Positions 233 through 17,523 of a stretch of DNA of 20,161 nucleotides are shown piece by piece. The stretch lies in IMG/VR virus record IMGVR_UViG_3300006641_000247, positions 1-20,161 of that record; one strand, 5' to 3'. Position 1 is the stretch's first letter. Every line of letters begins with the position of its first letter. The notes beneath the pieces are model-generated. The model made no database searches, was not told the origin of the DNA, and saw nothing but the letters and a program-made list of their open reading frames with translations. The DNA is from a virus. A program made the position numbers and the translations under genes.

Positions 233-238
233 GTCATC

Positions 239-1278: not shown

Positions 1279-1286
1279 CACGCTCG

Positions 1287-1634: not shown

Positions 1635-3612
1635 CATGATTGCACGCTTGGGCGTATTGCTCGGGCTGAACACCGCCGAATTCAATCAGGGTCTTGCTCA
1701 ATCGGGCAAGAAGATGGAAGAGTTTGTCGGCAAGGCAAAAGGCATGGCAACGGTGGCAGCAGGCGCGTTCGCGGCCATGACTGCCAAGGCAATGTTGTTT
1801 GCTGACGAAGTTGCTGACGTGGCAGCGGCAAACGATGTGGCGATTGATACCGTCATCAAGCTACAGAATGCCCTAGCCAACTCAGGCGGCAAAGCTGAAG
1901 ACGCAGGCAAGATGTTTGCCTCGTTCACTAACTATGTGGACAAGGCCGCAGAGGGATCGTTTGAGGCGCAGCGCAACTTTGCCAAGATTGGCGTTTCGCT
2001 CAAAGACCTTGAATCTCTGACGAGTCAGCAGCTTTTCCTGCGAACCATCCAAGGTCTTGCCGAGATTGAAGACCCGCTGACACGCTCCGCAAAAGCAATG
2101 GAGTTGCTCGGTAAAGCGGCAAAGGGCGTAGACATCGCGGGCGTTGCCGAAGGCATCAACAAGGCCAACGACGTTACAGAGAAGCAAGCCAATGCGATCA
2201 AGTTGCTTGCCGATTTCTACGACAAGCTCGGTCAGGCAAGTCGCAACCTAACGCTTAACTTTGTTGACTTCTTAGAGCCTGCGCTTCGCAAGATCAACGA
2301 AGCATTGGACAAGATGAGCCAACACGCCAAGTCAGGCACGCTCATCCAAGGATTTTTCGGCACGCTCAAGAAAGACTTTGCCGAGATTCAAATCACGGCG
2401 GCAAAAGACGAAATTGCCGCAATGGAAAAGCTGCTTCAAGACCCGAACGTGTCGGCGTTTTGGAAGGGCACCTATCGGGAGAGGATGAAGGAAGCCCAAG
2501 ATCAGCTTGCCAAGTGGCAACCGATCCTTGCGGCGATGAATGGCGAACTCAAGAATATGCAATCGGGCAGTTCGCAAGCCGGTGCCGGTCGCGGGTTTAT
2601 CAATCCCCCCTTGGTCACCGGGCCTTCCGGCCCAAAGATTCGAGATGTAAAGCCGGGCATTGACCCTGAAGAAGAAAAGCGCAAGCGAGAAGAGGAAAGA
2701 GAAATCAAGCGACGCGGCGAAATGGCTGCAAAGGCGCATCGTGCCCGCATGGAAGAGCAGAAAGATATAGACGATGCGACTGTCGCATACATAAATTATG
2801 TGCAGGCAATCAAGGAGTACGACGAGGCTCAGAATCGCGCATTGACTACTGAAGAGCGTTTGACCAATCTTGAATTGCAGCGCAGCAATATGCAAGAGTA
2901 CAACTATCAATTTTTGCGCTCAAGCATTAGTTTGACTGCTGAACTTGCAGAAGAACATAGAAAACTGAGCGAAGCCTCTCTTGCCCCCAAGGATCGTGAA
3001 GATGCTGAAAAGCGTTTGAATGAACTCTATCAGCGTAGGTTGCAATTGCTTAACATGATTCGAGAAGAATCAGAAAAAGCCAACCAAGACATCGGCGTGT
3101 TTGAAGGCTTCAAAAAGGCAGCAGGCGACTTCTTCAAAGAATTCCCTAAGGACATGGAAACCGGCGCAATGATGTTCGGTTCGCTTATGGGCAACATGAC
3201 CCGTGCGCTTGACGACTTCGTGCGTACCGGCAAGCTGAACTTCAAAGAGTTTGCTCGCAGCATCATCCTTGACATGATTGCCATTCAACTGAAGGCTTCG
3301 GCCATGAAGCTGTTGGCAAGCGTCTTCGGCTTTAACCTCCCCACGCGGGCAATGGGCGGCACGGTTACGGGCAACTCTGCCTATCTCGTGGGTGAGCGCG
3401 GGCCTGAACTGTTTGTGCCCCGCATGAGTGGCACCATCATTCCGAATCACAATCTGCAAAGCGCGGGCGCGTCAACCAACATCACGAACTACAACATCCA
3501 AGCGATTGATGTGAAGTCGTTTGAGCAAAGGTTACTTGGTAGTTCTAAAGCAATTTGGGCGGCGAATCAGTACGCGCAAAAAGGCTTGGCTGTCACGCCG
3601 GGGAGAATGTAA
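1627..3612 (+). CDS. Tail tape measure protein
   Basis: A 661-residue protein that fixes tail length and is ejected with the DNA. The N-terminus (LGVLLGLNTAEFNQGL, residues about 7-22) is the usual tape measure start. It is followed by long charged helices, a hydrophobic Ala-rich stretch (about 37-55), a very Glu/Lys/Arg-rich coiled region (about 350-500), and a C-terminal glycine-rich block with GERGPELFVP (residues 575-610) common to lambda-H-like and TP901-like tape measures. The start is GTG 1627, chosen because AGAAAGG lies just upstream; ATG 1636 is the alternative. At about 0.15 nm per residue the length predicts a tail near 100 nm. No peptidase or lysozyme domain is visible in it. Confidence 0.93.
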   Translation: MANMIARLGVLLGLNTAEFNQGLAQSGKKMEEFVGKAKGMATVAAGAFAAMTAKAMLFADEVADVAAANDVAIDTVIKLQNALANSGGKAEDAGKMFASFTNYVDKAAEGSFEAQRNFAKIGVSLKDLESLTSQQLFLRTIQGLAEIEDPLTRSAKAMELLGKAAKGVDIAGVAEGINKANDVTEKQANAIKLLADFYDKLGQASRNLTLNFVDFLEPALRKINEALDKMSQHAKSGTLIQGFFGTLKKDFAEIQITAAKDEIAAMEKLLQDPNVSAFWKGTYRERMKEAQDQLAKWQPILAAMNGELKNMQSGSSQAGAGRGFINPPLVTGPSGPKIRDVKPGIDPEEEKRKREEEREIKRRGEMAAKAHRARMEEQKDIDDATVAYINYVQAIKEYDEAQNRALTTEERLTNLELQRSNMQEYNYQFLRSSISLTAELAEEHRKLSEASLAPKDREDAEKRLNELYQRRLQLLNMIREESEKANQDIGVFEGFKKAAGDFFKEFPKDMETGAMMFGSLMGNMTRALDDFVRTGKLNFKEFARSIILDMIAIQLKASAMKLLASVFGFNLPTRAMGGTVTGNSAYLVGERGPELFVPRMSGTIIPNHNLQSAGASTNITNYNIQAIDVKSFEQRLLGSSKAIWAANQYAQKGLAVTPGRM

Positions 3613-4263
3613 ATGTCGTTTCAGACCATCGTTGACATTCAGCAGTCGATGACTGTGAACAACCGGCGCACGGTCGGTCAGCAAGTCACGCGGGGTGGGC
3701 AGATCAGGACGGCGCAGTACCTTACTTCCGTTCCTTGGGTCTTCACCATCGTCCCGCACAACTACCTGTATTACCCACAGGCGCGAGATGTGATTCAGAC
3801 CATCGACAACCTCGACCGACAGACGGCGGCAAACATCACGTTCAGCGGCACCACGCTTTCTTGGTTCACCGAGTACAAAGGTGGATTAACCGCAGGGCAG
3901 GCTGCGGCGCTGACACTTGCTTCGGTTCCTGCGGCAAACTCGCAAACCATCTCAGTGGGCAATCTCCCCGCCGTCGGCGCGGGCACGGTTGTGTTTGCGG
4001 CGGGCGACTTCCTGCAACTCGGCAGCTACGTTTACAAGGTCACGCAACAAGTCTTGCGCGGCGGTAGCTCGACGGTATCGGTCAACTTGCACCGCCCCGT
4101 TATCGGCACGCCTAGCACGGGCACCCTCACGGCCGTCGGGTCTGCGGTCTACTTTCCCGTGTATGCGGAAGTCTGCCCGACCTACTCGCTCACGCCGATG
4201 ACCAATGGCGCGTTTGTGAACTGGGATCAACCGTTCGTGTTCCGGGAGAACGTCGCGCCATGA
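3613..4263 (+). CDS. Distal-tail-type minor tail protein (putative)
   Basis: A 216-residue, beta-rich protein that starts one base after the tape measure stop. The first 110 residues hold aromatic strands (YLTSVPWVFTIVPHNYLYYP) and an IDNLDRQT segment. The C-terminal half is Thr/Ser/Val-rich with strands of the kind seen in beta-sandwich ring proteins. Position right after the tape measure is where lambda M, DUF2460 or Dit-type proteins sit, forming the ring that caps the tube and holds the tip hub. I cannot point to a family-defining motif, so the assignment is positional. The stop overlaps the next start by 4 nt (ATGA at 4260), so expression is likely coupled to the hub-type gene. Confidence 0.62.
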   Translation: MSFQTIVDIQQSMTVNNRRTVGQQVTRGGQIRTAQYLTSVPWVFTIVPHNYLYYPQARDVIQTIDNLDRQTAANITFSGTTLSWFTEYKGGLTAGQAAALTLASVPAANSQTISVGNLPAVGAGTVVFAAGDFLQLGSYVYKVTQQVLRGGSSTVSVNLHRPVIGTPSTGTLTAVGSAVYFPVYAEVCPTYSLTPMTNGAFVNWDQPFVFRENVAP

Positions 4264-4940
4264 GTACCACGATGAACGCGCTGAACAGCGCAAACATTCG
4301 ACACGCTGAGTTTGTCAGGATGGTAGTTGGCAAGACATCGCCAACGACCTACACATTCTGCAACGCGGCTGCGCCTGTCACGATCAGCGGAATCACGTTT
4401 TCGGGGATGGGGTCGCTTCTCGGAATCGGTCAGGTCGAGCGCAACATCAAGTCAACCTCGACCGACATGATGGTGTCGCTGACCGGCATCAACCCGGCCA
4501 ACGTCGCGCTAATCCTAAGCGCAGACATCAAAGGAAGCACAGTCGAAATTTGGCGCGGCTTCCTTGACTCTGACAATCAGATCATCACCACGCCAACGCA
4601 GCAGTTCTTTAAACGCTACCAAGGCATCGTTACCAATGTCTCAATTACCGAGGATTGGAACGACGAGGTACGAAGCAGGATTGCCACTTGCTCGATTTCC
4701 TGCACCTCCATGAAGCGGGTGCTAGAAACCTATGTGGCGTCTTCCAAAACGAACAAAACAGTTTGGCAGGATCGTTACGCGGGCGACACCTCAATGGATC
4801 GTGTCGATGCGATTTCTAGCACCTACTTTGACTTTGGCAAACCCGCATCGGGTGGCGGCGTGGCAAGTCCGGGCGGCATCAACGGCGGCAACGGAGGGTC
4901 TACGGTTCCGCGAATTGAATACGAAAATATCGGCGAATGA
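4260..4940 (+). CDS. Tail hub-type minor tail protein (gpL / DUF2163-like, putative)
   Basis: A 226-residue protein with a beta-rich core: the N-terminal strand region (TYTFCNAAAPVTISG, about residues 30-45), a VEIWRGFLDSD segment near residue 95, a QGIVTNVSITEDWNDE segment near 120, and a CSISCTSMKRVLETY region near 145. The tail is Gly/Ser/Pro-rich and ends in PRIEYENIGE. The order distal protein, this gene, then J matches lambda M-L-(K-I)-J, where L binds the tip and carries an iron-sulphur cluster. Three Cys lie close together here (near residues 140-150 and 35), but I cannot claim a cluster. The gene overlaps both neighbours by 4 nt. Confidence 0.6.
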   Translation: MSTTMNALNSANIRHAEFVRMVVGKTSPTTYTFCNAAAPVTISGITFSGMGSLLGIGQVERNIKSTSTDMMVSLTGINPANVALILSADIKGSTVEIWRGFLDSDNQIITTPTQQFFKRYQGIVTNVSITEDWNDEVRSRIATCSISCTSMKRVLETYVASSKTNKTVWQDRYAGDTSMDRVDAISSTYFDFGKPASGGGVASPGGINGGNGGSTVPRIEYENIGE

Positions 4941-5383
4941 TCAGGGAAGCAAACAAGTTCGACATAGATGCTTGCGTCGAGATGATGCGGCAATATGCGG
5001 CAGAGTCCCCGATCATTAAGCTAAGAGACAAGACACTACACGACGAGCAACACATACGCAGCCTGCTTTCCTCGCTCATCATCGGTCGCGGCTTTGTCCT
5101 AGTGGACAACGAATATCGCGGGATGGCAGCGGGGATCGTGGTGCCGAATGTGTGGTGCCCCGAGGTTAACGAAGTCAGGGAACTAGCTTGGTGGGTCGCG
5201 CCCGAGCATAGGAACACAACGATTGGCGGCAAATTGTTTTTGGCCTACAACAAGAAAGCACAAGAATTGATTGATCAGGAACGGGCAGAGGTTGTCATCA
5301 TTTCGCTGATGCCTCAAAGCCCTAAGATTGATCTTGAAAGCCGAGGCTTTAAGAAAATCGACTCGACGTACTGCAAGGAATAA
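4937..5383 (+). CDS. GNAT-like acetyltransferase in the tail operon
   Basis: A 148-residue protein with the GNAT fold order. The N-terminal strand is IREANKFDIDACVEMM (residues 2-17). A central strand pair (GFVLVDNEYRGMAAGIVV, 52-69) leads to ELAWWVAPEHRNTTIGGKL (82-100), which corresponds to the acetyl-CoA pyrophosphate loop. The usual R-x-x-G-x-G/A appears as R92-N-T-T-I-G97-G98, so the first glycine is a threonine. The C-terminal region (SRGFKKIDSTYCKE) resembles the GNAT beta6-beta7 end. It lies where lambda has the tip peptidase K and gene I. It could acetylate a virion or host protein, or be a structural or assembly protein that has lost catalysis. The fold assignment is good; the substrate is unknown. 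Confidence 0.75.
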   Translation: MIREANKFDIDACVEMMRQYAAESPIIKLRDKTLHDEQHIRSLLSSLIIGRGFVLVDNEYRGMAAGIVVPNVWCPEVNEVRELAWWVAPEHRNTTIGGKLFLAYNKKAQELIDQERAEVVIISLMPQSPKIDLESRGFKKIDSTYCKE

Positions 5384-5386
5384 AAA

Positions 5387-8300
5387 ATGGTCGGAACAAT
5401 GATTGCCGCCGCCATCGTCGGCGCTACAACGGGAATCGCATACTACGCGACCGCCTTTGCGATCAACTACGCGCTGTCCTACGTCGTCACCCGCACATTC
5501 GGGGCAAACAAGGCGCCCAACCAAGTTGATCCCGGCTCACGTCAGCAAATCCCCCCAAGCGCAAACAATCCGATCCCGATTGTCTATGGCGATGCGTGGC
5601 TAGGCGGTACGTTCGTTGATGCGGTGCTGTCCACCGACAACAAGACGATGTATTACGTCTTAGCGATCAGCAACATCTCACCCGATGGTCAGTTCACCTA
5701 TGACCGTACGCAGTTCTACTACGGCGACCGACTCGTCACCTTTGACGGCACTGACCCCACCAAAGTTGTCTCCCTGACTGACGGCGCAGGCAACGTAGAC
5801 ACCAAGATTTCGGGCAACCTTTACATCAACCTCTACACCTCCAACGCGGCGGGCACGATCATCAACGTGACCGGCTCTGCCCCGAGTGTGGTGATGGGTG
5901 GTTCAGACATTACGCCTAGCCTGCGGTGGCCTAGCACTCCAACGCGGCAAATGAATGGTTTGGCATTTGCCATTGTCAAGCTCACCTACAACAGCGAAGC
6001 GGGCACGACGGGACTTCAGCCCCTGACCTTCAAGGTTTCGCATTACCTCAAGAGCGCAGGCGCGGCACGCCCCGGCGATGTGCTTGAGGACTACCTGAAG
6101 TCGGATGTGTATGGTTGCGCGGTTCCTATCGGCAACATCAACACCACGGCTTGTGCGGCGCTAAATACCTACTCTGACCAACTGATCACATACATCCCCT
6201 ACACGGGCGGGTCTACTACCCAAGCTCGGTATCGGATCAACGGTGTGCTGAACACGGGCGAGAACGTCCTAAGCAACATCGATCGCATTCTCACGGCTTG
6301 CGACTCTTGGCTTGCGTACCAAGAAACCACGGGTCAATGGATGCCGGTGATCAACAAGGCAGAGTCGTCATCTTTCTCGTTTAATGACTCCAACATCATC
6401 GGTGAGCTTCGGGTAAGCATCTCCGACATCACGCAGAGCATCAACCAAGTCGAGGCCACGTTCCCGTGGAAAGGCAACAAGGATCAGCCCAACCTGATTT
6501 TCTTGGAAACGCCAAGTGTGCTGATGTACGCGAACGAACCTGCCAACAAAGCAACGGTGACGTTCGACCTGATCAACGACTCGGTGCAAGCGCAGTACAT
6601 CGCCAACCGGATGCTTGAGCAAGCGCGTGAGGACTTAATTGTCACGTTCTCGACCGCATACCCCGGCATTCAGGTTGACGCGGGTGATGTCATCAGCATC
6701 ACAAACAGCGACTACGGTTGGACGAACAAGCTGTTTCGCGCCATCAAGGTCAGCGAAACAACCCTACCCGACGGCAACCTTGGCGCACAGATTGAATGCA
6801 CAGAGTACAACGCCGACGTATACGACGATCAGAACATCACGCAATTCACGCCATCGCCTAACAGCGGGCTTTCCTCCGCGTATTTCTTTTCCGCTCTTGC
6901 TGCTCCGACGGTCAGCGATCAACTGCCTTCGGCTGCGGTTCCCTCGTTTAGCGTCACTTGCAACGTGCCAAGCTCAGGCCGCGTCACAAGCATCACGCTT
7001 TTCTATACGACCTCCGCGACGCCTTCGGCTTCGGATTGGAAGGTGTGGGGCACGGAGTATTCAGCCAACTCGCAGACCTTCGCGCCCTCGCTTGCGTTCA
7101 AGTTCACCAATGTTTCGCTTCCTGCGGCAACTTACTACTTTGCGTTCAAGGTCGCAAACGACGTAGCAACCTCGCAGCTTTCGACCGTTTCATCGGCGTT
7201 TGTGTGGGCACCTGTCTCGCCTTCGGGCGTCAAGACTGCGATTGCGTATCTCTATCAATGGGCGCTTACTCAACCCGGCAACCCGTCGGGCACTAGCACG
7301 TTCACATGGGCAACCGCGACAAACTCGGGCTACACCGGCGGCAATGGGTGGCAGACGATCATCCCGGCCAACCCCGGCACGGCGGGATTCTCTCTGTGGG
7401 TCGCGGCAAAAGAAGTATCTGAACCGGGCGCTGTCTTAACCACTACGATCAGTTGGACTTCGGGCTTTAGTGTCTACGCGCAGTCAACAAACGGCGCAAC
7501 AGGCCCGACAGGGCCGACAGGCCCAACAGGGCCGACCGGAAATAAAACGGCAAAGGCTTCTGTTTATCAATGGGCCGCAACCATTCCGGCAGGCCCAACG
7601 GGAACCTCAACGTACACATGGTCTAGCGGAACATTTACGCCCAATCCTGCGGGGTGGTCTAGCTCAATCACAACCTCGCCAAGCGCGGGCTTTACGCTTT
7701 GGGAGGCGTCTGTATCTCTGATTGATGTGGGGACTGCCACGACAACCACAATCAATTGGACAACGGCAAGCATCATCGCAGCGGGATATGCCGGTAACAC
7801 AGGCCCAACGGGATCGGCAGGGTCAAGCGCACGCATCTGTTTTGCGCGAGTGCCTAGCAATCCTTCCCCTGTTGCCGGAAACATCACCACTACCGGGTCT
7901 GCGTCATTTCCAAGCAGTGCCCAATCGCTTGCGACTTGGGGATTTGCTGCAACGTGGGGCGCAAGTGACCCGAACCCGTCTAGCACTGATTCCTTGTATC
8001 AATCGGACGGCATCTACGATCCGACAACCGGAAACACGGTGTGGTCTACGCCGTACATCTCAAGCCTGAAGGTCGGCACGCTGTCGGCTATCACGGTCAA
8101 CACGGGTGCGCTGACAGTTCAAAACACTTTGACAGTCAGCAACACCGGCAACATCCAAGGCGGGCAAACCGACTACAACACAGGCACCGGCTTCTTCCTT
8201 GGCTATAGCGGCGGCGCTTACAAGTTCAGCATTGGGTCATCGTCTGCGTCTTTGCTTTGGGATGGGTCTGCCCTTAACTTGACCGGCGCAAGCAACCTAA

Positions 8301-9319
8301 ACATTGGCGGCACCGCAAAGTTTTCAGGCAACAACACTTCACTTGGGCAAAACACAACCGTATGGGTTGAAGGTTCTGTAACGACTTCCACAAGTCTTTT
8401 GGTTCAGAACTCATACCCCAGTGGGTATTGCATACAAGCCAATCACCTTGGGTCATCTTCATCAGGCAATCAAGGTTCAGGAATTTATGCTTACGGTGCT
8501 GTCTATGGAATAACCGGATCGACCTCAACTTCTGCTGTCGGTCAAGCGGGTGTTGATGGTTACTCTTATTACGGCAAAGGTGTATACGGCAATTCCTTTT
8601 CGGGTTGGGGTGGCTATTTTGAGTGCAACACCTTGGCGCAAGGCTTGTACGCAAGCGGCATTCAACTACCTCAATCGGGCGAACTTCGATGGAGAACTAC
8701 GGGCGGCGGTATTGGTGCGTATGCCTACACAGATGGCAATGATGCGCTTTATTTAGTTTCAGGCGCTTCGGGATCGGGCAATCCTAAAGCCGTGCTTTTT
8801 GGCACCAAAGGAACCGGACGCGCTCGGGTAGAAGATGTATTCCTTCGGCCTGAGGTAGATAACTCAATGACCTTGGGCGCGGCGTCTTTTCGATTCGTGG
8901 ATGTGTACGCGGTCAGTGGCTCAGTCAATACCTCGGACGAACGGGAAAAGAACATCCTTGGTGACAACCCTCTTGGGTTGAACTTCATCAACAAGCTGCA
9001 AACCATCCAATACAAGTGGAAGGTGGCGCAGGCTGCGGTCAAGGAAAACGTCTATGACGATGAAGGCAACTTGACGGGCGAACGCGAAATACAACCGGCT
9101 CGGGAGGGCGTGCGTACTTTCCACGGATTGAGTGCTCAACAAGTCAAGGCGACCTTAGATCAGCTTGGCGTGGATAGCTTTGCGGGATGGGTCTTGGCAG
9201 ACAAAGACGACCCAAACAGTCTTCAGGGTTTGCGCTATGGCGAATTCATTGCCCCACTGATCAAAGCAATCCAAGAACTTTCACAAGAAGTTGCTGACTT
9301 AAAGGCAAAGCTACCCTAA
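5387..9319 (+). CDS. gpJ-like tail tip / central fibre protein with C-terminal S74 intramolecular chaperone
   Basis: A 1310-residue tip protein. A hydrophobic segment at residues about 5-33 leads to the J-type region (PIPIVYGDAWLGG near residue 62; hub-like strands to about 482, including AGDVISITNSDYGW). This is followed by a fibronectin-like part (about 500-610), two related beta domains (616-696 and 720-795) split by a collagen-like GPT run (703-718), a long Gly/Ser/Thr shaft, and a peptidase S74 domain from about 1170. The S74 motif SDEREK places the catalytic Ser at 1183 and Lys at 1188, so autocleavage before Ser1183 would free a 128-residue chaperone ending in a heptad-rich helix. AAGGA lies 8 nt upstream of the ATG, inside the previous gene. 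The role in host recognition and DNA release is inferred from the family. Confidence 0.9.
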   Translation: MVGTMIAAAIVGATTGIAYYATAFAINYALSYVVTRTFGANKAPNQVDPGSRQQIPPSANNPIPIVYGDAWLGGTFVDAVLSTDNKTMYYVLAISNISPDGQFTYDRTQFYYGDRLVTFDGTDPTKVVSLTDGAGNVDTKISGNLYINLYTSNAAGTIINVTGSAPSVVMGGSDITPSLRWPSTPTRQMNGLAFAIVKLTYNSEAGTTGLQPLTFKVSHYLKSAGAARPGDVLEDYLKSDVYGCAVPIGNINTTACAALNTYSDQLITYIPYTGGSTTQARYRINGVLNTGENVLSNIDRILTACDSWLAYQETTGQWMPVINKAESSSFSFNDSNIIGELRVSISDITQSINQVEATFPWKGNKDQPNLIFLETPSVLMYANEPANKATVTFDLINDSVQAQYIANRMLEQAREDLIVTFSTAYPGIQVDAGDVISITNSDYGWTNKLFRAIKVSETTLPDGNLGAQIECTEYNADVYDDQNITQFTPSPNSGLSSAYFFSALAAPTVSDQLPSAAVPSFSVTCNVPSSGRVTSITLFYTTSATPSASDWKVWGTEYSANSQTFAPSLAFKFTNVSLPAATYYFAFKVANDVATSQLSTVSSAFVWAPVSPSGVKTAIAYLYQWALTQPGNPSGTSTFTWATATNSGYTGGNGWQTIIPANPGTAGFSLWVAAKEVSEPGAVLTTTISWTSGFSVYAQSTNGATGPTGPTGPTGPTGNKTAKASVYQWAATIPAGPTGTSTYTWSSGTFTPNPAGWSSSITTSPSAGFTLWEASVSLIDVGTATTTTINWTTASIIAAGYAGNTGPTGSAGSSARICFARVPSNPSPVAGNITTTGSASFPSSAQSLATWGFAATWGASDPNPSSTDSLYQSDGIYDPTTGNTVWSTPYISSLKVGTLSAITVNTGALTVQNTLTVSNTGNIQGGQTDYNTGTGFFLGYSGGAYKFSIGSSSASLLWDGSALNLTGASNLNIGGTAKFSGNNTSLGQNTTVWVEGSVTTSTSLLVQNSYPSGYCIQANHLGSSSSGNQGSGIYAYGAVYGITGSTSTSAVGQAGVDGYSYYGKGVYGNSFSGWGGYFECNTLAQGLYASGIQLPQSGELRWRTTGGGIGAYAYTDGNDALYLVSGASGSGNPKAVLFGTKGTGRARVEDVFLRPEVDNSMTLGAASFRFVDVYAVSGSVNTSDEREKNILGDNPLGLNFINKLQTIQYKWKVAQAAVKENVYDDEGNLTGEREIQPAREGVRTFHGLSAQQVKATLDQLGVDSFAGWVLADKDDPNSLQGLRYGEFIAPLIKAIQELSQEVADLKAKLP
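7229..7775 (+). repeat. Two related beta domains in the tail-tip protein
   Basis: Residues 616-696 and 720-795 of the J-like protein align by eye: KTA..YQWA...P.G.GTST(F/Y)TW, then GW, then AGF(S/T)LW(V/E)A, then TTTI(S/N)WT. The repeat period is about 104 residues. The DNA copies differ at many bases, so this is an old duplication. The domains resemble small beta-sandwich shaft or carbohydrate-binding modules, but the type is not identified. Confidence 0.75.
7493..7540 (+). repeat. Collagen-like Gly-X-Y run in the tail-tip protein
   Basis: Residues 703-718 read GAT followed by four GPT triplets and a final G. Such runs form short triple helices and act as rigid trimeric linkers in phage fibres. 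Shorter fragments (AGNTGPTGSAGS) recur around residue 800. The codons alternate (CCG/CCA, GGC/GGG), so the run is not a pure DNA microsatellite. Confidence 0.85.
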
Positions 9320-9431
9320 AATTTGGCAAGACAAGACACACTTCGTAGCCCTGCGAGTCAGCGGGGAGCGTCACAACCCGAGTTAGGGGAAACCATGAGT
9401 GTCAATGCGCTTCCCCGCGTAGGGAAGCAAA
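9320..9431 (+). promoter_or_regulatory. Structured leader before the fibre module (only gap of the late operon)
   Basis: This 112-nt stretch is the only plus-strand gap longer than about 15 nt between genes before 17523. It holds alternating C- and G-tracts. CCCTGC (9349-9354) pairs with GCGGGG (9361-9366). CCC (9377-9379) can pair with GGG (9386-9388). GGGGAA (9386-9391) can pair with TTCCCC (9411-9416), and GCTTCCC (9409-9415) pairs with GGGAAGC (9422-9428). The last two pairings exclude each other. No convincing -35/-10 pair is present and no U-tract follows a stem, so a translational switch fits better than a promoter or terminator. I do not recognise a known riboswitch class. Confidence 0.5.
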
Positions 9432-9448
9432 ATGCCCAAGTTCAATAA
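9395..9448 (+). CDS. Candidate 17-codon leader peptide
   Basis: ATG 9395 follows a strong ribosome binding site (AGGGGA at 9385-9390) with 4-5 nt spacing and opens 17 codons (MSVNALPRVGKQNAQVQ) ending at TAA 9446-9448. It overlaps the first 17 nt of the fibre-adaptor gene in another frame. Its translation would sweep through the stem at 9409-9428 that covers the adaptor's ribosome binding site. It may act only by being translated, not as a peptide. The alternative is chance: short ORFs with a good SD do occur. Confidence 0.4.
   Translation: MSVNALPRVGKQNAQVQ
9409..9428 (+). promoter_or_regulatory. Stem-loop sequestering the ribosome binding site of the fibre adaptor gene
   Basis: GCTTCCC (9409-9415) and GGGAAGC (9422-9428) form a perfect 7-bp stem with a six-base loop. 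The 3' arm contains the only SD-like sequence (AGGGAAG) for ATG 9432, so the folded form should block initiation. The same TTCCCC can instead pair with GGGGAA at 9386-9391, which would free the adaptor site and mask the leader ORF site. Confidence 0.55.
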
Positions 9449-9914
9449 GAACGTCATCACCCAAGTCAGCGGGTTTGACAACGCCCTTCTGTCGGGTGAG
9501 TTGGTTTGGAACCAAAAGACTTATTGGAACCTTCAGCTTAAAAATTGCGGCACTATCGTTGATCTGACGGGTGCCACAATTGCTGCGTCTATCGTTCGAC
9601 GAACGGTGACCAACCTGATAGACACCCGCAACGGGCTGTCTTTTGATGTGGGGGACTACACCCCAACGCCAACGCCGGTCAACCTGACGATCACCAATTT
9701 CGTCCCGGCTAACGGCTCGTTCACGCTTGTGATTGATGACTCTACTTGGAGTCTGATCAACAGCGATCCTGAACTGTCAATCAACGCCAACGACCCCGTG
9801 GCCTTCACGGGTCGCATCAAGATTTCCATTCCGGTGCAAGGAACAAACCCGGCTCAGGATTGGGTCATCTTCCTTTTCTTCCTCGTGCGCTCCGATGGAG
9901 TGATTAAGGTCTGA
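9432..9914 (+). CDS. BppU N-domain-like fibre adaptor / baseplate protein (putative)
   Basis: A 160-residue beta-rich protein. The segment VDLTGATIAASIVRR (about residues 44-58), followed by strands to SFTLVIDDSTWSLI and a final DWVIFLFFLVRSDG strand, follows the pattern of the BppU N-terminal immunoglobulin-like domain (D-LTGATV-x-x-x-I-R). In lactococcal phages that domain anchors receptor-binding proteins to the distal tail. Here it is the first gene after the J-like protein and is followed 2 nt later by the large fibre, which supports an adaptor role. Start ATG 9432 is preceded by AGGGAAG, which lies in a stem. The fold call is by pattern only; it could be another minor tail beta-sandwich. 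Confidence 0.62.
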   Translation: MPKFNKNVITQVSGFDNALLSGELVWNQKTYWNLQLKNCGTIVDLTGATIAASIVRRTVTNLIDTRNGLSFDVGDYTPTPTPVNLTITNFVPANGSFTLVIDDSTWSLINSDPELSINANDPVAFTGRIKISIPVQGTNPAQDWVIFLFFLVRSDGVIKV

Positions 9915-9916
9915 TC

Positions 9917-12900
9917 ATGCAAGTCTTCGTCGAGAATCCCAATACCATCGTCATTGATGTCGATCAGGGCCGTCAGGGTCGCGGCATTTCAAACATCACT
10001 TACACCGAGGTAAGCGGGCAATACTTCCTCATCGTCACCTACACCGATGGAACCACCGAAACGCTCGGGCCTTTGGTGGTCACGGGCGGCGCGGCTTTCC
10101 TGTTGGGTGGCACGACCGGCGCACTTCCCTATCAAAGCGCACCAAATACCACGACCTTCCTGCCCATCGGCACGGCCAATCAGGTTGTCGTTGCGGGCGC
10201 TTCTGCCCCTCAGTACACCTCAAACCTCACCGGCCTGACGGTCAATAACACGCCTGTCGGCAACACTACGCCTTCGACGGGCGCGTTTACCAATTTGTCG
10301 GCCTCGGGCACGTTTGCCCTGACCGGCGACCAAGTTCAGATTTCCGAAGGCGGCACCGGGCAGACCACGGCCAATGCAGCTTTCAACGCTCTTGCTCCCT
10401 CACAGACCGGCAACGCAGGCAAGTACCTCAAGACGGACGGTACGAATTCCGCGTGGGATCAACTTGACATCTCGACTGCCGACATCACCGGCACGCTTCC
10501 GATTGCTAATGGCGGCACGGGGGCAACGACCGCATCGGGCGCACGGGCTAACCTGAGTGCTGCGGTTCTTGGCACAAACAACGACATCACTTCGATGACC
10601 GGGGTGACGGGCGGCATTAGCTCGCCTGACTTCGTGCAGTTCGACACGACCGCTGCTGCAACTAACGCAGTTGGCAAAGTCTATTGGGACGCAGCGCAAG
10701 GCACGCTTGATGTTGGCCTGCTTGGTGGCAACGTCGTCACGCGCATCGGTCAAACCCTTGTGGCGTTTGTAACCAACGCCGAAGCTGTCACCATTACTAA
10801 GGGTCAGGTGGTCTATCTGTTCGGCGCTCAAGGCGACCGGGCAACCGTCAAACTTGCCTACAACACCTCTGACGCGACTTCTGCCAAGACGTTTGGCGTG
10901 GTGGCTGAGAACATCGGGCCTAACCAAACCGGCTTCGTGATGTGTCAGGGTGTCCTAGAAGGATTGAACCTCGGCGCATTTACCGCAGGCAACACCCTGT
11001 ACCTCGGCGCTACTCCCGGCTCACTCACGGCCACAAAGCCTGCCGCACCGAATCACCTTGTGTATGTTGGTCTTGTCGAGCGTGCGAACCCCGGTAATGG
11101 ACAGCTCTACGTCAAGGTGCAGAACGGCTATGAGCTAAACGAAATCCACGACGTACAGATCATCACGCCGCAAAACGGACAGACGCTGATCTATGACGCG
11201 ACTACCTCGCTTTGGAAGAATGCCAACCTGACCGCAGGATCGGGCATCAGCGTCACGAACGGCGCTGCGTCGATCACCGTGTCCAACACGGGCGTTTTGT
11301 CGTTTAGTGCAGGCACGACCGGCCTGACGCCTGCCACCTCGACTACGGGCGCAGTGACCCTTGGCGGCACGCTGAATGTGGCTCACGGCGGAACAGGGGC
11401 TACGACTGCTTCGGGCGCTCGGACTAACCTCGGGTTGGGAACGATCTCAATTCAAGACGCCAACAATGTTTCAATCACCGGCGGCACGATCACGGGTATC
11501 ACCGACCTTGCCGTGGCCGATGGCGGCACAGGTGCGTCCAATGCTCCCGATGCTCGGACTAACTTGGGCGCTGCGGCATCTGCCACAACGATTACCGCAG
11601 GCACCGGATTGACGGGCGGTGGCGATCTGTCTGCCAACCGCACCATCTCTATCGCCAACACCACGGTTACCTCGGGTTCCTACGGCTCGGCTTCCGATAC
11701 CCTGACGGCCACCGTCAATCAACAAGGCCAACTGACGGCGCTCGCCTCGACGCCGATTGCGATTGCCAACACCCAAGTTTCGGGCCTTGGCACGCTTTCG
11801 ACGCAGAACGCCAATTCGGTCGCCATCACGGGTGGTTCGATCAACAACACGACCGTGGGTGCTGCGACCCCCTCGACGGGCGCATTCACCTCGGTGGCCA
11901 TGACCTCGGGCACGGTCACCACGACCCCCGCAAGCGCAACCGACATCGCAAATAAGCAATACGTCGACACGCTGATTTCGAGTGGCATCACCTACCACGC
12001 CCCGGTCAAATATGAGGTGCCCAACAGCACGGGCAACCTCAACGCGACCTACAACAATGGAACCGCCGGTGTCGGCGCGACGCTGACGAACGCAGGCACG
12101 CTTGCAGCATTCACGCCCGATGGGGTGGTGGCGCAGGCGGGTGACCGCATCCTGATCTACAACCAAACCAATGCGTTTGAGAACGGCGTCTACGTTGTCA
12201 CCACGGTTGGAAGCGGCTCGGTTGCATGGGTGCTGACTCGCGCTTCTGATGCAGATACTTACGCGCTCAAGAGTCCAAACAGTCTTGGCGAGGGTGATGC
12301 CTTCTTCATCCAAAGCGGAAACACGGGCGCGGGCGAAACCTACGTCTGCAACACGCAAGGCACGATCACGTTCGGCACCACCCCGATCACCTTCGTGCAA
12401 GTCTCTGCCGCACAGGTCTACAGCGCAGGCACGGGCCTGACGCTCTCGGGTACGCAGTTCTCAATCACCAACACCGCAGTCACGCCCAACAGCTACGGCT
12501 CTGCTTCCGACACGCTTACTGCGACCGTTAACGCACAGGGTCAACTGACTGCGCTCGCGGCCACGCCGATTGCCATTGCGAATACGCAAGTGTCCGGCCT
12601 TGGAACGATGTCCACCCAAAACGCGACGAACGTGGCGATCACGGGCGGATCAATTACCGGCATCAATGATCTTGCGGTTGCTGACGGTGGCACGGGCGCG
12701 TCTGACGCCTCGACCGCACGCACGAACCTTGGTGCTGCGGCTTCAGCCACGACCATCAGCGCGGGTACAGGTCTGTCGGGTGGCGGCGACTTGTCGGCCA
12801 ATCGGACTATCTCGCTTGCCAACACCACGGTTACTGCTGCGTCTTACGGCTCGGCATCGTCGGTCGGCACGTTTACGGTCAACGCTCAAGGCCAACTGAC

Positions 12901-15133
12901 TGCGGCATCTTCCACGCCTATCGCCATCGCCAACACTCAGGTGTCGGGGTTGGGCACGATGTCCACCCAAAACGCCAACAGCGTTGCGATCACGGGCGGC
13001 AGCGTTGACGGCACGACTATCGGCGGCACGACTCGCGCAGCGGGATCGTTCACCACGTTGACGCTCACAAATGCTCTTGGCATTGCCAACGGGGGCACGG
13101 GGCAAACGACTGCCAACGCAGCATTCAACGCCCTTGCGCCTTCTCAGACGGGCAATGCCGGGAAGTATCTGACCACTGACGGCACGAATACTTCGTGGGC
13201 AACGAACCCGCTAGGCACGGTGACTTCGGTTGATGTGTCGGGCGGCACCACGGGCCTGACCACTAGCGGCGGGCCGATCACCTCTAGCGGCACCATCACC
13301 CTCGGGGGCACGCTTGCCACCACGAACGGCGGCACGGGCCTGACCTCTTTCACAGCCAACGGTATTGTCTATGCCTCATCCACGAGTGCGCTGACCACGG
13401 GGAGTGCGCTGACGTTTGATGGGACGACGCTGAACACCAAAGGTCAGTTTAGGGTCACCGACAGCACGAACGCCGCCAATTACCTTCTGTTTGGTTCTGG
13501 GGCAAACGCGCCTCGTGGTGGAAATTCCATTACCGCGCAAACATCAACATTTGTGTTTGGTACGGAGACAGATAACCCAAACATCTTCATCGTCAACGGC
13601 ACCGAACAAATGCGCCTGACTAGCAGCCTGCTGTCAGTCGTACCCGGCGCAACGATTCAAGGACTCACCGTAGGCCGTGGCGCGGGTGCTGTGGCTACCA
13701 ACACTGCGGTGGGTGCGAGTGCGTTGGCGGCGAATACAACGGGCGAGCGTATTACAGCGGTCGGCAATAACGCTCTCTTGTCAAATACCACAGGCAACTA
13801 TGCTGTTGCTGTCGGTTGGGAGGCGCTTCGTTCGAACACGATAGGCGATAGAAACCACGCGTTTGGCTACGCCAGTATGTATACCAATACAACTGGTAAC
13901 TACAACACTGCTGTCGGTTATGGGGGGCTTTACGCCAACACGACTGGCGGCAATAACAGTGCCATTGGTTATAGCGTGCTAGGAGCCAACACTACCGGCT
14001 CTAACAATACCGCTGTTGGAACCGACTCCCTCTACTTCAACACCACCGCTTCAAACAATACTGCTGTTGGTTATCAGGCGGGGTATAGCAATACGACGGG
14101 TACAACAAGCGTATTTTTGGGTCGGCAAGCGGGTTACTCCAACACTACAGGCGCAAACACTCTGATTGGCGATCAGGCAGGCTATTTCATTACCACTGGT
14201 ACAGGTAATGTAGGTGTTGGCCGATATGTTTTGAATGCAATTAGTGGAACAAATACTGGCAACTATAATGTTGCGGTTGGTGACAATGCACTTAGTTCCA
14301 ACACCACCGGCAGTAGCAACGTCGCAATTGGTCACGCGGCCCTCTACTCCAACACCACCGCCTCTAACAACACTGCTGTAGGGTATCAGGCGGGGTATGG
14401 CAATACGACGGGGGCCGACAACACATTCCTTGGTCAACTCGCAGGCTATGGCGTAACCACGGGCAGTAGAAACACGCTCGTAGGTTTCTACACCGGGTCG
14501 CAAATGACCACGGGAACTTTCAACACCTTCATCGGAACGCAGGCGGGTCAGGCGGTCACTACTGGTGGCAAGAACACCATCCTCGGCACTTACTCCGGCA
14601 ACCAAGGTGGCCTCGACATCCGCACGGCAAACAACTACATCGTGCTGTCGGATGGAGATGGGAATCCGCTTATCTCCACAAATGCTTCGCGCTCTGTTGC
14701 GCTGAATGGGGCTGTGCCGCAGACCGGCACCGGCATCACCTTCCCCGCCACCCAATCCGCATCCTCTGACGCGAATACGTTGGATGACTATGAGGAGGGG
14801 ACTTGGACACCCGGATCATCTGCGGTAACAGTGACCGTAAATGAGGCGAGGTATACAAAAATTGGTCGTTTTGTTCATGCTTACGCTTATGTTGAAATCA
14901 ATAACACAAGTGGTGGCACATTAAGCGGCCTCGCATGGACTGGTCTTCCGTTTAATTCGCTTGGCTACGGCCCTGCAACTCGCTATTACAAAGCGGGAAC
15001 CGGGAGCACAAACACTCAGATTTGGGGCGGCGATAGTTACACCGAATCTGGCTCAACTCAAATCATTGACAACAACGATGTTGGCTCAGGGATTAGCCAA
15101 ATCATGATTTCTGCAACTTACTTCGCATCTTAA
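9917..15133 (+). CDS. Large modular tail fibre / receptor-binding protein with YadA-like repeats
   Basis: A 1738-residue fibre. An N-terminal attachment region (about 1-60) precedes a shaft made of tail-fibre repeats of the GGTGATTA-x-x-AR-x-NLG kind (about residues 145-560). A fibre domain found in many phages starts with DIANKQYVD at 676 and runs to about 835 (AGDRILIYNQTNAFENGVYVV within it). Near-copies of the shaft module follow to about 1090. A switch to 18 units of 17-18 residues (A-V-G-x-x-A-L-x-x-N-T-T-G pattern) begins at residue 1262 and ends near 1565. The C-terminal domain starts with TLDDYEEGTWTP (1621-1632), a common receptor-domain opening in phage fibres. Unlike the J-like protein, no S74 motif is present. 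AAGGT precedes ATG 9917. Confidence 0.9.
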   Translation: MQVFVENPNTIVIDVDQGRQGRGISNITYTEVSGQYFLIVTYTDGTTETLGPLVVTGGAAFLLGGTTGALPYQSAPNTTTFLPIGTANQVVVAGASAPQYTSNLTGLTVNNTPVGNTTPSTGAFTNLSASGTFALTGDQVQISEGGTGQTTANAAFNALAPSQTGNAGKYLKTDGTNSAWDQLDISTADITGTLPIANGGTGATTASGARANLSAAVLGTNNDITSMTGVTGGISSPDFVQFDTTAAATNAVGKVYWDAAQGTLDVGLLGGNVVTRIGQTLVAFVTNAEAVTITKGQVVYLFGAQGDRATVKLAYNTSDATSAKTFGVVAENIGPNQTGFVMCQGVLEGLNLGAFTAGNTLYLGATPGSLTATKPAAPNHLVYVGLVERANPGNGQLYVKVQNGYELNEIHDVQIITPQNGQTLIYDATTSLWKNANLTAGSGISVTNGAASITVSNTGVLSFSAGTTGLTPATSTTGAVTLGGTLNVAHGGTGATTASGARTNLGLGTISIQDANNVSITGGTITGITDLAVADGGTGASNAPDARTNLGAAASATTITAGTGLTGGGDLSANRTISIANTTVTSGSYGSASDTLTATVNQQGQLTALASTPIAIANTQVSGLGTLSTQNANSVAITGGSINNTTVGAATPSTGAFTSVAMTSGTVTTTPASATDIANKQYVDTLISSGITYHAPVKYEVPNSTGNLNATYNNGTAGVGATLTNAGTLAAFTPDGVVAQAGDRILIYNQTNAFENGVYVVTTVGSGSVAWVLTRASDADTYALKSPNSLGEGDAFFIQSGNTGAGETYVCNTQGTITFGTTPITFVQVSAAQVYSAGTGLTLSGTQFSITNTAVTPNSYGSASDTLTATVNAQGQLTALAATPIAIANTQVSGLGTMSTQNATNVAITGGSITGINDLAVADGGTGASDASTARTNLGAAASATTISAGTGLSGGGDLSANRTISLANTTVTAASYGSASSVGTFTVNAQGQLTAASSTPIAIANTQVSGLGTMSTQNANSVAITGGSVDGTTIGGTTRAAGSFTTLTLTNALGIANGGTGQTTANAAFNALAPSQTGNAGKYLTTDGTNTSWATNPLGTVTSVDVSGGTTGLTTSGGPITSSGTITLGGTLATTNGGTGLTSFTANGIVYASSTSALTTGSALTFDGTTLNTKGQFRVTDSTNAANYLLFGSGANAPRGGNSITAQTSTFVFGTETDNPNIFIVNGTEQMRLTSSLLSVVPGATIQGLTVGRGAGAVATNTAVGASALAANTTGERITAVGNNALLSNTTGNYAVAVGWEALRSNTIGDRNHAFGYASMYTNTTGNYNTAVGYGGLYANTTGGNNSAIGYSVLGANTTGSNNTAVGTDSLYFNTTASNNTAVGYQAGYSNTTGTTSVFLGRQAGYSNTTGANTLIGDQAGYFITTGTGNVGVGRYVLNAISGTNTGNYNVAVGDNALSSNTTGSSNVAIGHAALYSNTTASNNTAVGYQAGYGNTTGADNTFLGQLAGYGVTTGSRNTLVGFYTGSQMTTGTFNTFIGTQAGQAVTTGGKNTILGTYSGNQGGLDIRTANNYIVLSDGDGNPLISTNASRSVALNGAVPQTGTGITFPATQSASSDANTLDDYEEGTWTPGSSAVTVTVNEARYTKIGRFVHAYAYVEINNTSGGTLSGLAWTGLPFNSLGYGPATRYYKAGTGSTNTQIWGGDSYTESGSTQIIDNNDVGSGISQIMISATYFAS
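10349..13190 (+). repeat. Internal shaft modules of the tail fibre
   Basis: Long modules recur in the fibre: about 11482-11847, 12466-12653 (partial) and 12648-13008, each running through ADGGTGAS, ARTNLGAAASATTI, GGGDLSANRTIS, SYGSAS, TVN-x-QGQLTA and PIAIANTQVSGLGT. A second module (GGTGQTTANAAFNALAPSQT, then GNAGKYL-x-TDGTN) occurs at 10349-10446 and 13089-13190. The proteins are almost identical, while synonymous positions differ widely (8 of 30 bases across LGAAASATTI between copies one and three). Confidence 0.88.
13700..14640 (+). repeat. YadA-head-like repeat array (18 units) in the tail fibre
   Basis: Residues 1262 to about 1565 contain 18 consecutive units of 17-18 residues with a (A/V)-(V/I/F)-G-x-x-(A/S)-(L/G)-x-x-N-T-T-G-x-x-N core. 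The second half of the array shifts toward a GYQAGY variant. Such units form left-handed beta rolls in trimeric adhesins of bacteria and occur in some phage fibres. Copies differ in sequence and codons, so this is not a simple tandem DNA repeat. Confidence 0.85.
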
Positions 15134-15145
15134 AAGGAAATTATC

Positions 15146-15406
15146 ATGGCTAAATTTGAAGAAAAAACCTACATCTCTCAATTCGACATCCAACCCAACG
15201 GGTGCATTGGGGTTCGCAAGACCACCGATGTCCTGAAGGATGGCACCGTCATTTCGTCAACCTACTGGCGTTGCGTCCTCGCGCCCAACGACCCGCAGGC
15301 ATCCACGGTGCTGAATGAGGCTTACTACCTCAACATCGCCAACTACGCTTGGAGCCAACCGTCGCCCCAACCGTATGACCCGAATCCCCCAACCCCCGGA
15401 GTTTGA
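15146..15406 (+). CDS. Small conserved-looking protein after the tail fibre, function unknown
   Basis: An 86-residue protein with a strong ribosome binding site (AAAGGAAA, 8 nt before ATG). The sequence has a beta-hairpin-like front (TYISQFDIQPNGCIGVRKTT) followed by STYWRCVLAPND and a Pro/Tyr/Gln-rich C-terminus (SPQPYDPNPPTPG). No membrane segment or known motif is visible. Its position directly behind the long fibre, 12 nt after the stop, is where fibre assembly chaperones or small virion proteins are often found, so such a role is possible but not shown. The stop overlaps the TTG/AAC/ATG region of the next gene without gap. Confidence 0.7.
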   Translation: MAKFEEKTYISQFDIQPNGCIGVRKTTDVLKDGTVISSTYWRCVLAPNDPQASTVLNEAYYLNIANYAWSQPSPQPYDPNPPTPGV

Positions 15407-15408
15407 AC

Positions 15409-15630
15409 ATGACTGAAACCCCAACCGCTGAAGAAATCGCACGCCACTACAGCGCCGCGATGGACAGCGTGAACCTGCTGAACGCCGGTAAGTCCGAAGG
15501 CATGGACGATGCTGAATGGGCGGATTGCGTCAAGCGCAACGTCGAGCATTTGAAGATTATGGTCGCCAAAGACTTCATGCAAGACCAAGACCTTGATCCC
15601 CTGAACGCAGCCATTTCCGCTAACGAATAA
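15409..15630 (+). CDS. Small acidic phage protein of unknown function
   Basis: A 73-residue acidic protein. I choose ATG 15409 over TTG 15403, because the ATG has a GGAG box 7-8 nt upstream and lies just after the previous stop. Notable is the MDDAEWADCVKRNVEHLKIM segment (about residues 31-50) followed by VAKDFMQDQDLDPL, a pattern I have seen in small proteins behind phage tail genes, where it has no assigned function. It is helical, soluble and has a single Cys. It could be a late regulator or a chaperone. Only the gene call is confident, not the role. Confidence 0.7.
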   Translation: MTETPTAEEIARHYSAAMDSVNLLNAGKSEGMDDAEWADCVKRNVEHLKIMVAKDFMQDQDLDPLNAAISANE

Positions 15631-15640
15631 GGAAACGACA

Positions 15641-15805
15641 ATGAACGACAAGACTGAAATCAAGCTGACTCTGCAACTGGTCAACGCCATTCTTCAATAC
15701 TTGGGCACCCGCCCATATCAAGAGGTGTTCCCGCTAGTGGCAGAGATTCAGAACCAAGCAACTCCGCAAGTCCCGGACGTAACACAGGAACCCACGGTGC
15801 AGTGA
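15641..15805 (+). CDS. Short hypothetical protein (54 residues)
   Basis: This short ORF starts at ATG 15641 behind AAGGAAAC and ends in TGA that overlaps the next ATG (TGATG at 15803-15807). The N-terminal half (IKLTLQLVNAILQYLGTRPY) looks like an amphipathic helix. It continues with QEVFPLVAEIQNQATPQV and ends in a Pro/Thr/Glu-rich tail. The coupling to the next gene and the good ribosome binding site support a real gene. A similar layout (a short LQLVNAIL-x-YL-type helix) occurs in phage proteins without a function. It may belong to the tail or lysis module. Confidence 0.6.
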   Translation: MNDKTEIKLTLQLVNAILQYLGTRPYQEVFPLVAEIQNQATPQVPDVTQEPTVQ

Positions 15806-16026
15806 TGGAATCGCAAGTCTTTATTAACAGCATTTTTGGTGTGGCCGCATTCCTTGGGGGATGGGTGTTAAACAACATCACGCGCACGATCAATCGGATT
15901 GATAAAGACTTGCGTGAGATGCCCCACATCTACGTCACGAAGGACACTTACCACCGCGACATAGACGAACTGAAGGACATCTGTAGGCAAATCTTTGCCA
16001 AGCTAGATCACAAAGCAGATAAGTGA
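15805..16026 (+). CDS. Small single-pass membrane protein of the lysis region
   Basis: A 73-residue protein with one transmembrane segment (VFINSIFGVAAFLGGWVL, residues about 5-22), then a charged stretch, an HIYVTKDTYHRDIDELKD motif and a helix ending in IFAKLDHKADK. I take ATG 15805, which overlaps the previous stop (TGATG), not GTG 15802. Proteins with this plan (N-terminal TM, YV-x-K-D-x-Y, then a KLD-x-KADK end) are common next to holin and endolysin genes in phages and are usually left unnamed. A holin helper, antiholin or inner membrane spanin-like role is possible, but nothing here is decisive. Confidence 0.68.
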   Translation: MESQVFINSIFGVAAFLGGWVLNNITRTINRIDKDLREMPHIYVTKDTYHRDIDELKDICRQIFAKLDHKADK

Positions 16027-16520
16027 TGGAACCGATAACCGGCATTCTTGCGGCAGTATCAGCAGCGAATGCCGCCTTCGGTGCAGTCAAGAAACTCGTC
16101 GCCACGGGCCGCGAGATTCAGGACGTTGCCGGTCAGATTGGCAAGTGGTACGGGGCCTTCGGGGACTTCAATCGCCTCGCCACCGAGAAGGCCAACAAGA
16201 AGCCTTCCATCTTCAAACGCTTGTTGCATGACGGCAGCATTGAGCAGGAAGCCTTGCAGATCACGATGCACAAGCAGGCGCTGATCAAGCAGGAGTACGA
16301 ACTCAAGATTCTGATCGTCGCTCACTACGGCGAGAACGTCTACAACGAAATGATCATGGAGCGCATCCGGCTTAAGCGGGAGCGCGACAAGAAAGAGCGT
16401 GAGCATCGGCTGCGGCAGCAGGATTTCATGCTCAACGTCAAGTACGGTGGGGCGATTGCATTTCTCGGAACCGCTGTCTTGGCGGTTCTTTACTATTTGG
16501 CAGACAAGGTGAGGCACTAA
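16026..16520 (+). CDS. Membrane-anchored helical protein of unknown function in the lysis cassette
   Basis: A 164-residue protein, start ATG 16026 (TGATG overlap with the previous gene). The N-terminus is Ala-rich and amphipathic (ITGILAAVSAANAAFGAV). A long charged helical middle contains RIRLKRERDKKEREHRLRQQ near residue 120. A single transmembrane segment (YGGAIAFLGTAVLAVLYYLA, about 140-159) lies close to the C-terminus. The layout fits a tail-anchored membrane protein with a cytoplasmic coiled coil. Comparable proteins occur between tail and holin genes in aquatic phages. It could help lysis timing or membrane remodelling; no enzymatic motif is seen. Confidence 0.65.
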   Translation: MEPITGILAAVSAANAAFGAVKKLVATGREIQDVAGQIGKWYGAFGDFNRLATEKANKKPSIFKRLLHDGSIEQEALQITMHKQALIKQEYELKILIVAHYGENVYNEMIMERIRLKRERDKKEREHRLRQQDFMLNVKYGGAIAFLGTAVLAVLYYLADKVRH

Positions 16521-17023
16521 TGCTTTCTCTACTCTCGACCCTTGGCGGCTTGCTGATCAGCGGCCTTCCCAAGCTCTTAGACTTCTTCCAAAACAAGGCC
16601 GATCAAGCGCACGAACTGCGAATGATGCAAGTGCAGACTGAGCGCGAACTGCAAATGGCAGCAGCGGGGTTTGCGGCGCAGGCAAGGATGGAGGAAATCC
16701 GCACCGAACAGGTGATGCTAGAGACAGACGCCCGCATGACCGAAGCGGCGCTGAAGCACGATGAGCAAGTGCTAGAGAAGGCAAGCCGGTGGGTGGCAAA
16801 CTATGTCGGGACGGTGCGTCCGACCGTGACCTACATCTTCGTGTTTGAATTGGTTGCCATAAACGCATTCATGGCGTGGTATCTGTGGAACCATCCACAG
16901 CTTATTCAGAGCATGGACGACATCATTCAGTATTCCGACCTGATTTTCTCGACCGATGAAATGGCAATGCTTGGGGCCGTGATCGGCTACTGGTTCGGAA
17001 CACGCGGGTGGGCTAAGAAGTGA
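16520..17023 (+). CDS. Holin, 3-TM family of the gene-transfer-release type
   Basis: A 167-residue inner membrane protein. A hydrophobic N-terminal segment (LLSTLGGLLISGLPKLL, about 4-20) is followed by a charged coiled coil (about 25-90) and two transmembrane segments (about 98-122, VTYIFVFELVAINAFMAWYL; and 147-163, LGAVIGYWFGTRGW). The end GYWFGTRGWAKK and the ASRWVANYVGTVRP entry to TM2 match the holin family described for gene-transfer-agent release (PF11351-type). Holins make the lesion that lets endolysin reach the wall. ATG 16520 overlaps the previous TAA, and the stop overlaps the endolysin GTG (GTGA). Confidence 0.8.
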   Translation: MLSLLSTLGGLLISGLPKLLDFFQNKADQAHELRMMQVQTERELQMAAAGFAAQARMEEIRTEQVMLETDARMTEAALKHDEQVLEKASRWVANYVGTVRPTVTYIFVFELVAINAFMAWYLWNHPQLIQSMDDIIQYSDLIFSTDEMAMLGAVIGYWFGTRGWAKK

Positions 17024-17523
17024 AACTGAGCAAGGCAGGCGAAGACCTCATGCACAAGTATGAGGGCTTTAGAAGCAAGCCTTACCTTTGCCCTGCCCAC
17101 ATTTGGACTATTGGGTACGGCCACGTTCTCTATCAAGAACAGATCAGATTGCCGGTAGTCCGAAAAGAAGGCTACACAGGAATGATTCGCAATGAATACA
17201 ACATCAAGCCCGAAGACAATCGCATATGGACGAAGACCGAGATTGATGAGTTATTCCGCGATGATGTCGGCACTTTTGAACGTGGTGTTTTTCGACTTGT
17301 TCCCGGTGTGGTTGGGCGTCAAGGCAGCTTTGACGCTCTTGTATCTTTTGCCTTCAATGCCGGTCTAGGCAACCTTCAGCGTAGTCAGATCAGGATTCGC
17401 GCCAACCGGGGCGATTGGGAAGGTGCAGCAGATGCGTTCCGTCAATGGACACGTGGGGGTGGCAAGGTGCTGCCGGGGCTAGTCAGGCGCAGAGAAGCCG
17501 AGATAGCCCTTTTCCTATCTTAA
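17020..17523 (+). CDS. GH24 endolysin (T4-type lysozyme)
   Basis: A 167-residue muralytic enzyme that cleaves the MurNAc-GlcNAc bond. The catalytic Glu is E15 (YEGFRSKPY). The second residue of the usual E-8-D/C-5-T triad is C24 and the third is T30 (WTIGYGH). A longer loop (about 37-75) separates this from the helical lobe (VSFAFNAGLGNL and WTRGGGKVLPGLVRRREAE). No signal peptide or anchor is present, so export should need the holin next door. The start is GTG 17020 overlapping the holin stop; no other start fits the family length. This is the last gene before the plus-strand terminator. Confidence 0.92.
   Translation: MKLSKAGEDLMHKYEGFRSKPYLCPAHIWTIGYGHVLYQEQIRLPVVRKEGYTGMIRNEYNIKPEDNRIWTKTEIDELFRDDVGTFERGVFRLVPGVVGRQGSFDALVSFAFNAGLGNLQRSQIRIRANRGDWEGAADAFRQWTRGGGKVLPGLVRRREAEIALFLS

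Follow-up and report, generated by a model that had tools for sequence, protein, structure and literature searches.

Small structured RNAs to which a protein binds at a gene's ribosome-binding site are familiar as translational operators of phages, as with T4 gp32 and RegA and the coat protein hairpins of RNA phages. The autoregulation of gp32 is one subject of PMC535899. Hairpins can also sequester a ribosome-binding site directly, as they do in T4 late genes and homing endonuclease genes (I-TevI, I-TevII, I-TevIII, segB, soc, e, 25 and 26) and in Aeh1 mobE, and the late promoter of I-TevI is placed so that short transcripts escape the inhibitory structure (PMC2988022). Beyond model phages, it is poorly known how the balance of fibre and tail tip is set and how fibre cassettes move with their expression intact. 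Both questions would have a simple answer in a leader that moves along with the cassette and supplies a promoter-like box of its own as well as a ribosome-binding site that is masked.

The window, by which I mean the whole 20,161-nt stretch of freshwater phage DNA analysed here, carries an operon (8-17523) whose sole gap, 112 nt at 9320-9431, lies ahead of the tail-fibre genes; the parts of the leader and the tip, adaptor and long fibre genes around it are on the plus strand. A preliminary description of this DNA had singled out the gap as the only real one, just before the host-recognition genes, and this is confirmed: the seeming second gap at 15631-15801 is filled by a 54-aa ORF with a Shine-Dalgarno sequence (SD). 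That ORF (15641-15805, SD AAGGAAA) was missing from the ORF list and precedes the lysis-side genes.

Upstream of the gap lies the gene for a J-like tip or fibre protein of 1310 aa (5387-9319, stop codon TAA at 9317-9319), which is the 5' neighbour that can be swapped; the protein carries short collagen-like GPTGPTG repeats and, at its C-terminus, an S74-like chaperone domain. Immediately 5' of it, the tail operon contains a GNAT-like acetyltransferase gene (4937-5383; PHROG 1249, E 6e-12). Downstream lies a 160-aa beta-sandwich protein (9432-9914), here called the adaptor, whose AlphaFold model (mean pLDDT 81) finds 8hqz (E 5e-6) and 7qg9 (E 3e-5) in Foldseek; the predicted fold resembles T5 tail-tip core and DT57C baseplate proteins, and BppU and p132-like viral models are matched as well. 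These likenesses fit, and are consistent with, a role in fibre attachment. The first large gene past the adaptor encodes a long fibre protein of 1738 aa (9917-15133) with PHROG structural and tail-fibre matches.

The conserved element in the gap is an RNA of about 55 nt with two hairpins upstream of an SD, visible by eye in aligned relatives. H1 (9344-9370) pairs 9344-9346 with 9368-9370 and 9349-9354 with 9361-9366, with an internal loop AG/A and an apical loop GAGTCA. H2 (9377-9388) pairs CCC at 9377-9379 with GGG at 9386-9388, with a predicted pair probability of about 0.80 in the window, and its 3' arm belongs to the conserved SD AGGGGA (9385-9390). This SD directly serves the adaptor in relatives that lack the insertion described below; in the window it is now followed by a 17-codon ORF. 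The C/G tracts at 9349-9366 and 9377-9388, which had been read as extending a chain of alternative pairings, are present as described and are in fact the truly conserved hairpins H1 and H2.

As judged from aligned sequences, the two-hairpin leader is preserved through compensatory base changes, seen in dozens of distinct but related phages. In H1, 96-99% of cells are paired and both sides have changed in 4-6 of the 9 pairs. In H2, 13-15 sequences have changed on both sides (CC-C/G-GG versus CC-U/A-GG), and the 5' arm tracks the changes in the SD, as CCC/GGG and CCU/AGG and, in single leaders, CUA/UAG and CCA/UGG. Over the 13 pairs of alignment A1, 93% of cells are paired and 53 cells have changed on both sides, compared with 13 under shuffling (0/500); the corresponding counts are 69 versus 19 in alignment A2 and 64 versus 19 in A5. 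When the partners are slid, pairing falls from 91-93% to 29-57%. The MAFFT and model-fitted alignments favour the structure used, and the slid and shuffled controls fail to reproduce the signal; likewise, the pattern-selected leader set is biased to the main sequence type, and loci selected by protein agree with it.

Among 57 representative leaders that share less than 80% identity, nearly all fold into the two-hairpin layout with differing stems, and under strict gap costs the identity among leaders exceeds that of shuffled and upstream blocks. The H1 loop is either a tetraloop of AGUN type or a hexaloop, GAGUNN (AGNN in 35 of 61), and the H2 loop is often (G)AGNN. Single-sequence fold stability is modest (mean z -1.36 for the representative leaders), and H2 is weak, ranging from about -3.5 to above 0 kcal/mol and poorly formed in some leaders, so the masking of the SD may be slight. 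H1 was also considered as a terminator and rejected, having no U-tract, and a terminator scan listed none within 9320-9448.

The position of the element is as constant as its structure. Among the best 80 of 148 loci found with the 160-aa adaptor query, and the best 80 of 527 from a profile search, the start codon lies directly 3' of the conserved SD in nearly all. A pattern scan found the element in at least 119 stretches, and among the matches listed for which the downstream ORF was read, the next gene is the adaptor, or an endonuclease followed by the adaptor, in the large majority. Of 19 phage records, covariance model R1 detects the element in 18 at E <= 1 and strongly (E <= 8e-6) in 17, with one strong copy in each strongly matching record, ahead of the adaptor gene. 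The window scores 71.7 bits against the leader covariance model, which was itself partly built from the window. Among genome contigs there was a single match, again with the adaptor downstream (L283, DYLG01000288.1); this 5-kb phage-like tail contig is binned to a Desulfomonile tiedjei MAG, probably wrongly.

P19250A (KX815270), a Methylophilaceae phage, is the sole isolate with the adaptor that turned up in the phage collection searched, and the one cultured representative of the leader there. Its leader (L197:19946-19999) resembles that of the window in its -10 box (TATAAT, L197:19925-19930), H1, H2 and downstream adaptor, but it has no annotation and lacks both the 37-nt insertion and the 17-codon ORF. 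A nucleotide search of phage records with window positions 8900-10400 gave no match, the window has no Rfam 15 match at the gathering score, and seven relatives have none at E <= 1. Nor is the leader described in the literature searched. It is a real, conserved and previously undescribed RNA leader, which would add to the catalogue an RNA family absent from Rfam and present in more than 100 environmental phage contigs.

At the 5' edge of the conserved module, overlapping the stop codon of the J-like gene, is a -10-like box TAAAAT (TAnAAT; 9317-9322), and a scan of the window gives a promoter-like match at 9294-9322. Among the 89 leaders with divergent upstream DNA, a TATAAT-like hexamer (at least 5 of 6 positions) is present in 82% at -95 to -60 relative to the start codon, compared with 9-11% in control bins, and these leaders show no conserved -35 box. 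In 14 pairs with similar adaptors and unrelated upstream DNA, similarity mostly ends 15-25 nt before H1, at the -10 box. These breakpoints indicate that the leader belongs to the adaptor and fibre cassette, and that the upstream gene is the part exchanged. They also back a second suggestion of the preliminary description, that the gap marks a module boundary used in fibre swapping. One pairing, L002 with the window and L001, has a nearly identical leader and adaptor, unrelated upstream DNA and a break at the -10 box, and is by these signs a recent fibre-module exchange.

How does this leader compare with the systems described above? The T4 hairpins appear to be the nearest worked example on polycistronic phage messages: in both cases phage genes lie in long polycistronic units, with a ribosome-binding site in a hairpin and a gene-proximal promoter (PMC2988022). 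Pairing of the SD within a hairpin is likewise predicted here, for H2. However, the candidate promoter of the window would not give a transcript that omits the structure; unlike in I-TevI, its -10 box comes before H1 and H2, and a short transcript would therefore carry them. Also unlike T4, the leader is a conserved two-hairpin family across many phages. Its resemblance to the gp32, RegA and coat protein operators lies in being a small structured RNA at a phage gene's ribosome-binding site, but it has two hairpins with similar loops and freely changing stems, and would be an operator only putatively. Leader-peptide attenuators share with the window a short leader ORF ahead of structural alternatives; here, in contrast, that ORF is not conserved, and there is neither a terminator U-tract nor a regulatory codon run.

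I consider it probable, though well short of certain, that the element is cis-regulatory, a leader through which the fibre module has a promoter of its own and a ribosome-binding site that is masked, with the adaptor of the window clade translated by coupling. A separate transcript would start from the -10 box at the end of the tip gene, and its 5' end would fold into H1 and then into the small H2, whose 3' arm is the adaptor SD. By masking the SD weakly, H2 would set adaptor translation, presumably lowering it, or let a factor set it. The unit of -10 box, H1, H2, adaptor and fibre would stay together while the upstream gene is swapped. This evidence supports the earlier expectation that the fibre module is immediately preceded by a leader that is structured, looks regulatory and contains an SD.

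The window clade adds a complication to this layout. The preliminary description had noted a well-placed SD and a 17-codon ORF overlapping the adaptor start, and both are there: the ORF, MSVNALPRVGKQNAQVQ, runs from ATG 9395 to TAA 9448 and past the adaptor ATG at 9432. Its own ATG occupies the ancestral adaptor start position, and an insertion of about 37 nt (9398-9434, equivalently 9395-9431) separates that ATG from adaptor codon 2, putting the adaptor start 88 nt from the beginning of H1 in the window, versus 51-55 nt in insertion-free relatives. The insertion contains the entire body of the ORF, the segment TTCCCC and a second SD, AGGGAA (9421-9426), which is the adaptor's in this clade. 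It is seen in 8 viral contigs and the window, all almost identical, and the 17-codon frame is restricted to this clade; in the nearest insert-free relatives (L203/L279, L278, L280, L281 and L095) the ATG stands immediately 3' of the conserved SD. To judge by these relatives, the 17-codon ORF arose by a recent local insertion, confined to a single small clade, and is not a conserved device.

Within the insertion, GCTTCCC and GGGAAGC form a predicted hairpin (9409-9428; pairing of 9409-9415 with 9422-9428, probability about 0.88) that buries the second SD, whose mean unpaired probability is 0.19 in the window fold. The ORF runs through this hairpin and beyond the adaptor AUG, and a coupling role for it is plausible, given that a stable hairpin inside the ORF buries the adaptor SD. 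Under the cis-regulatory reading, an insertion behind the ancestral start would have converted that start into the 17-codon ORF and left the adaptor to start beyond a new and stable hairpin that buries its SD; ribosomes on the ORF would melt this hairpin and terminate 14 nt beyond the adaptor AUG. The geometry fits such coupling, and the adaptor of the window clade would probably be translated through it.

As to the origin of the insert, it may be the scar of a former homing endonuclease gene at the adaptor start, a proposal that concerns the insert alone, is compatible with the cis-regulatory reading and seems to me nearly as likely to be right as wrong. Several relatives have a free-standing endonuclease gene at precisely this site, using the leader's ATG (L016, L023, L043, L102, L118, L175 and L183). 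One kind is a GIY-YIG-like protein of about 158 aa (Pfam E 0.016, below the cut-off), and NUMOD3 genes occupy exactly the same site. Other relatives have deletion scars (L010-L013, L127, L147, L182 and L028), some with mini-ORFs such as MSSNQGFLCFARKAG, which would be a precedent for the 17-codon ORF. The sequence GCGTAGGG..AAGC of the insert matches the end of L016, but once multiple comparison is allowed for, the resemblance of the insert to known endonuclease ends falls short of significance (at best 15/500 shuffles). Two other accounts of these junctions were rejected: a frameshift or fusion of endonuclease and adaptor, as the frame relation varies (0, +1 and -1 at junctions L016, L010 and L043), and an intron, as the insert is hardly larger than the ORF and the scars are only about 19-52 nt.

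For the leader itself, a rather unlikely alternative is that both hairpins are bound by an RNA-binding protein from the phage or the host, such as an autorepressor encoded by the adaptor or fibre gene, that would recognise the repeated (G)AGU loops, with H2 fully closed only when bound. The similar loops on both hairpins across diverged stems, the retention of the loop while the stems covary freely and the weakness of H2 on its own would suit such a protein. However, no binding protein was identified, and the likeness of the loops could stem from a fold preference. A broader version, in which the tandem (G)AGU-loop hairpins would be the operator of a protein governing the amount of fibre relative to tail tip, and the unit an exchangeable host-recognition cassette of freshwater phages repeatedly invaded by homing endonucleases at its start codon, I regard as speculative and doubtful.

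It is also unlikely that the element serves mainly to stabilise the 5' end of the mRNA, by protection from RNase E or pyrophosphatase, together with a constant ribosome-loading region, the pairing of H2 being incidental. No helix is stronger or better conserved than H1, which is close to the predicted start of the transcript, but H2 covaries too, including the base pairs of the SD. A DNA-level homology block retained only for recombination between fibre modules is very unlikely. Although breakpoints cluster at the 5' edge of the element, such a block should conserve sequence, whereas the stems diverge with pairing kept; covariation therefore disfavours it, and swapping looks like a consequence of the conserved unit.

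Least probable, and very improbable indeed, is the bistable toggle first proposed for this gap, in which TTCCCC (9411-9416) alternates between the leader SD (GGGGAA, 9386-9391) and, as GCTTCCC, the adaptor SD, leaving one open at a time: the two complementarities exist, letter for letter, and are mutually exclusive, but both pairings occur only with the clade-specific insertion, neither of them nor the 17-codon frame is conserved among relatives, an outcome that the preliminary description had itself named as refuting the proposal, the insert varies too little within the clade for compensatory changes to tell for or against it, and the alternative pairing has a probability of about 0.003 with an ensemble energy 3.6 kcal/mol worse, so that a single stable hairpin and not a balanced toggle is predicted. 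The 141-nt region is indeed more stable than most shuffles (z = -2.32; 4 of 200 equally stable). The bistable 17-codon story is a clade-specific accident.

The endonuclease insertions are accompanied by differences in the adaptor start codon. Where the GIY-YIG-like endonuclease (about 158 aa) or its scar precedes the adaptor (L010-L013, L016, L023, L028, L043, L102, L118, L127, L147, L175, L182 and L183), the codon standing where the adaptor begins is ATA or ATC, in 14 distinct sequences, preceded by SD-like AGGGTAAA, AGGGTAGC or AGGATAAA; at other loci it is ATG, TTG or GTG (87 distinct). L028 has no nearby in-frame standard start, which suggests initiation of the adaptor at AUC or AUA. At the insertions of the second family, NUMOD3 proteins of about 245 aa in the same position (L083:1139-1873 and L178:12729-13469, both on the minus strand), the adaptor keeps a GTG or ATG start.
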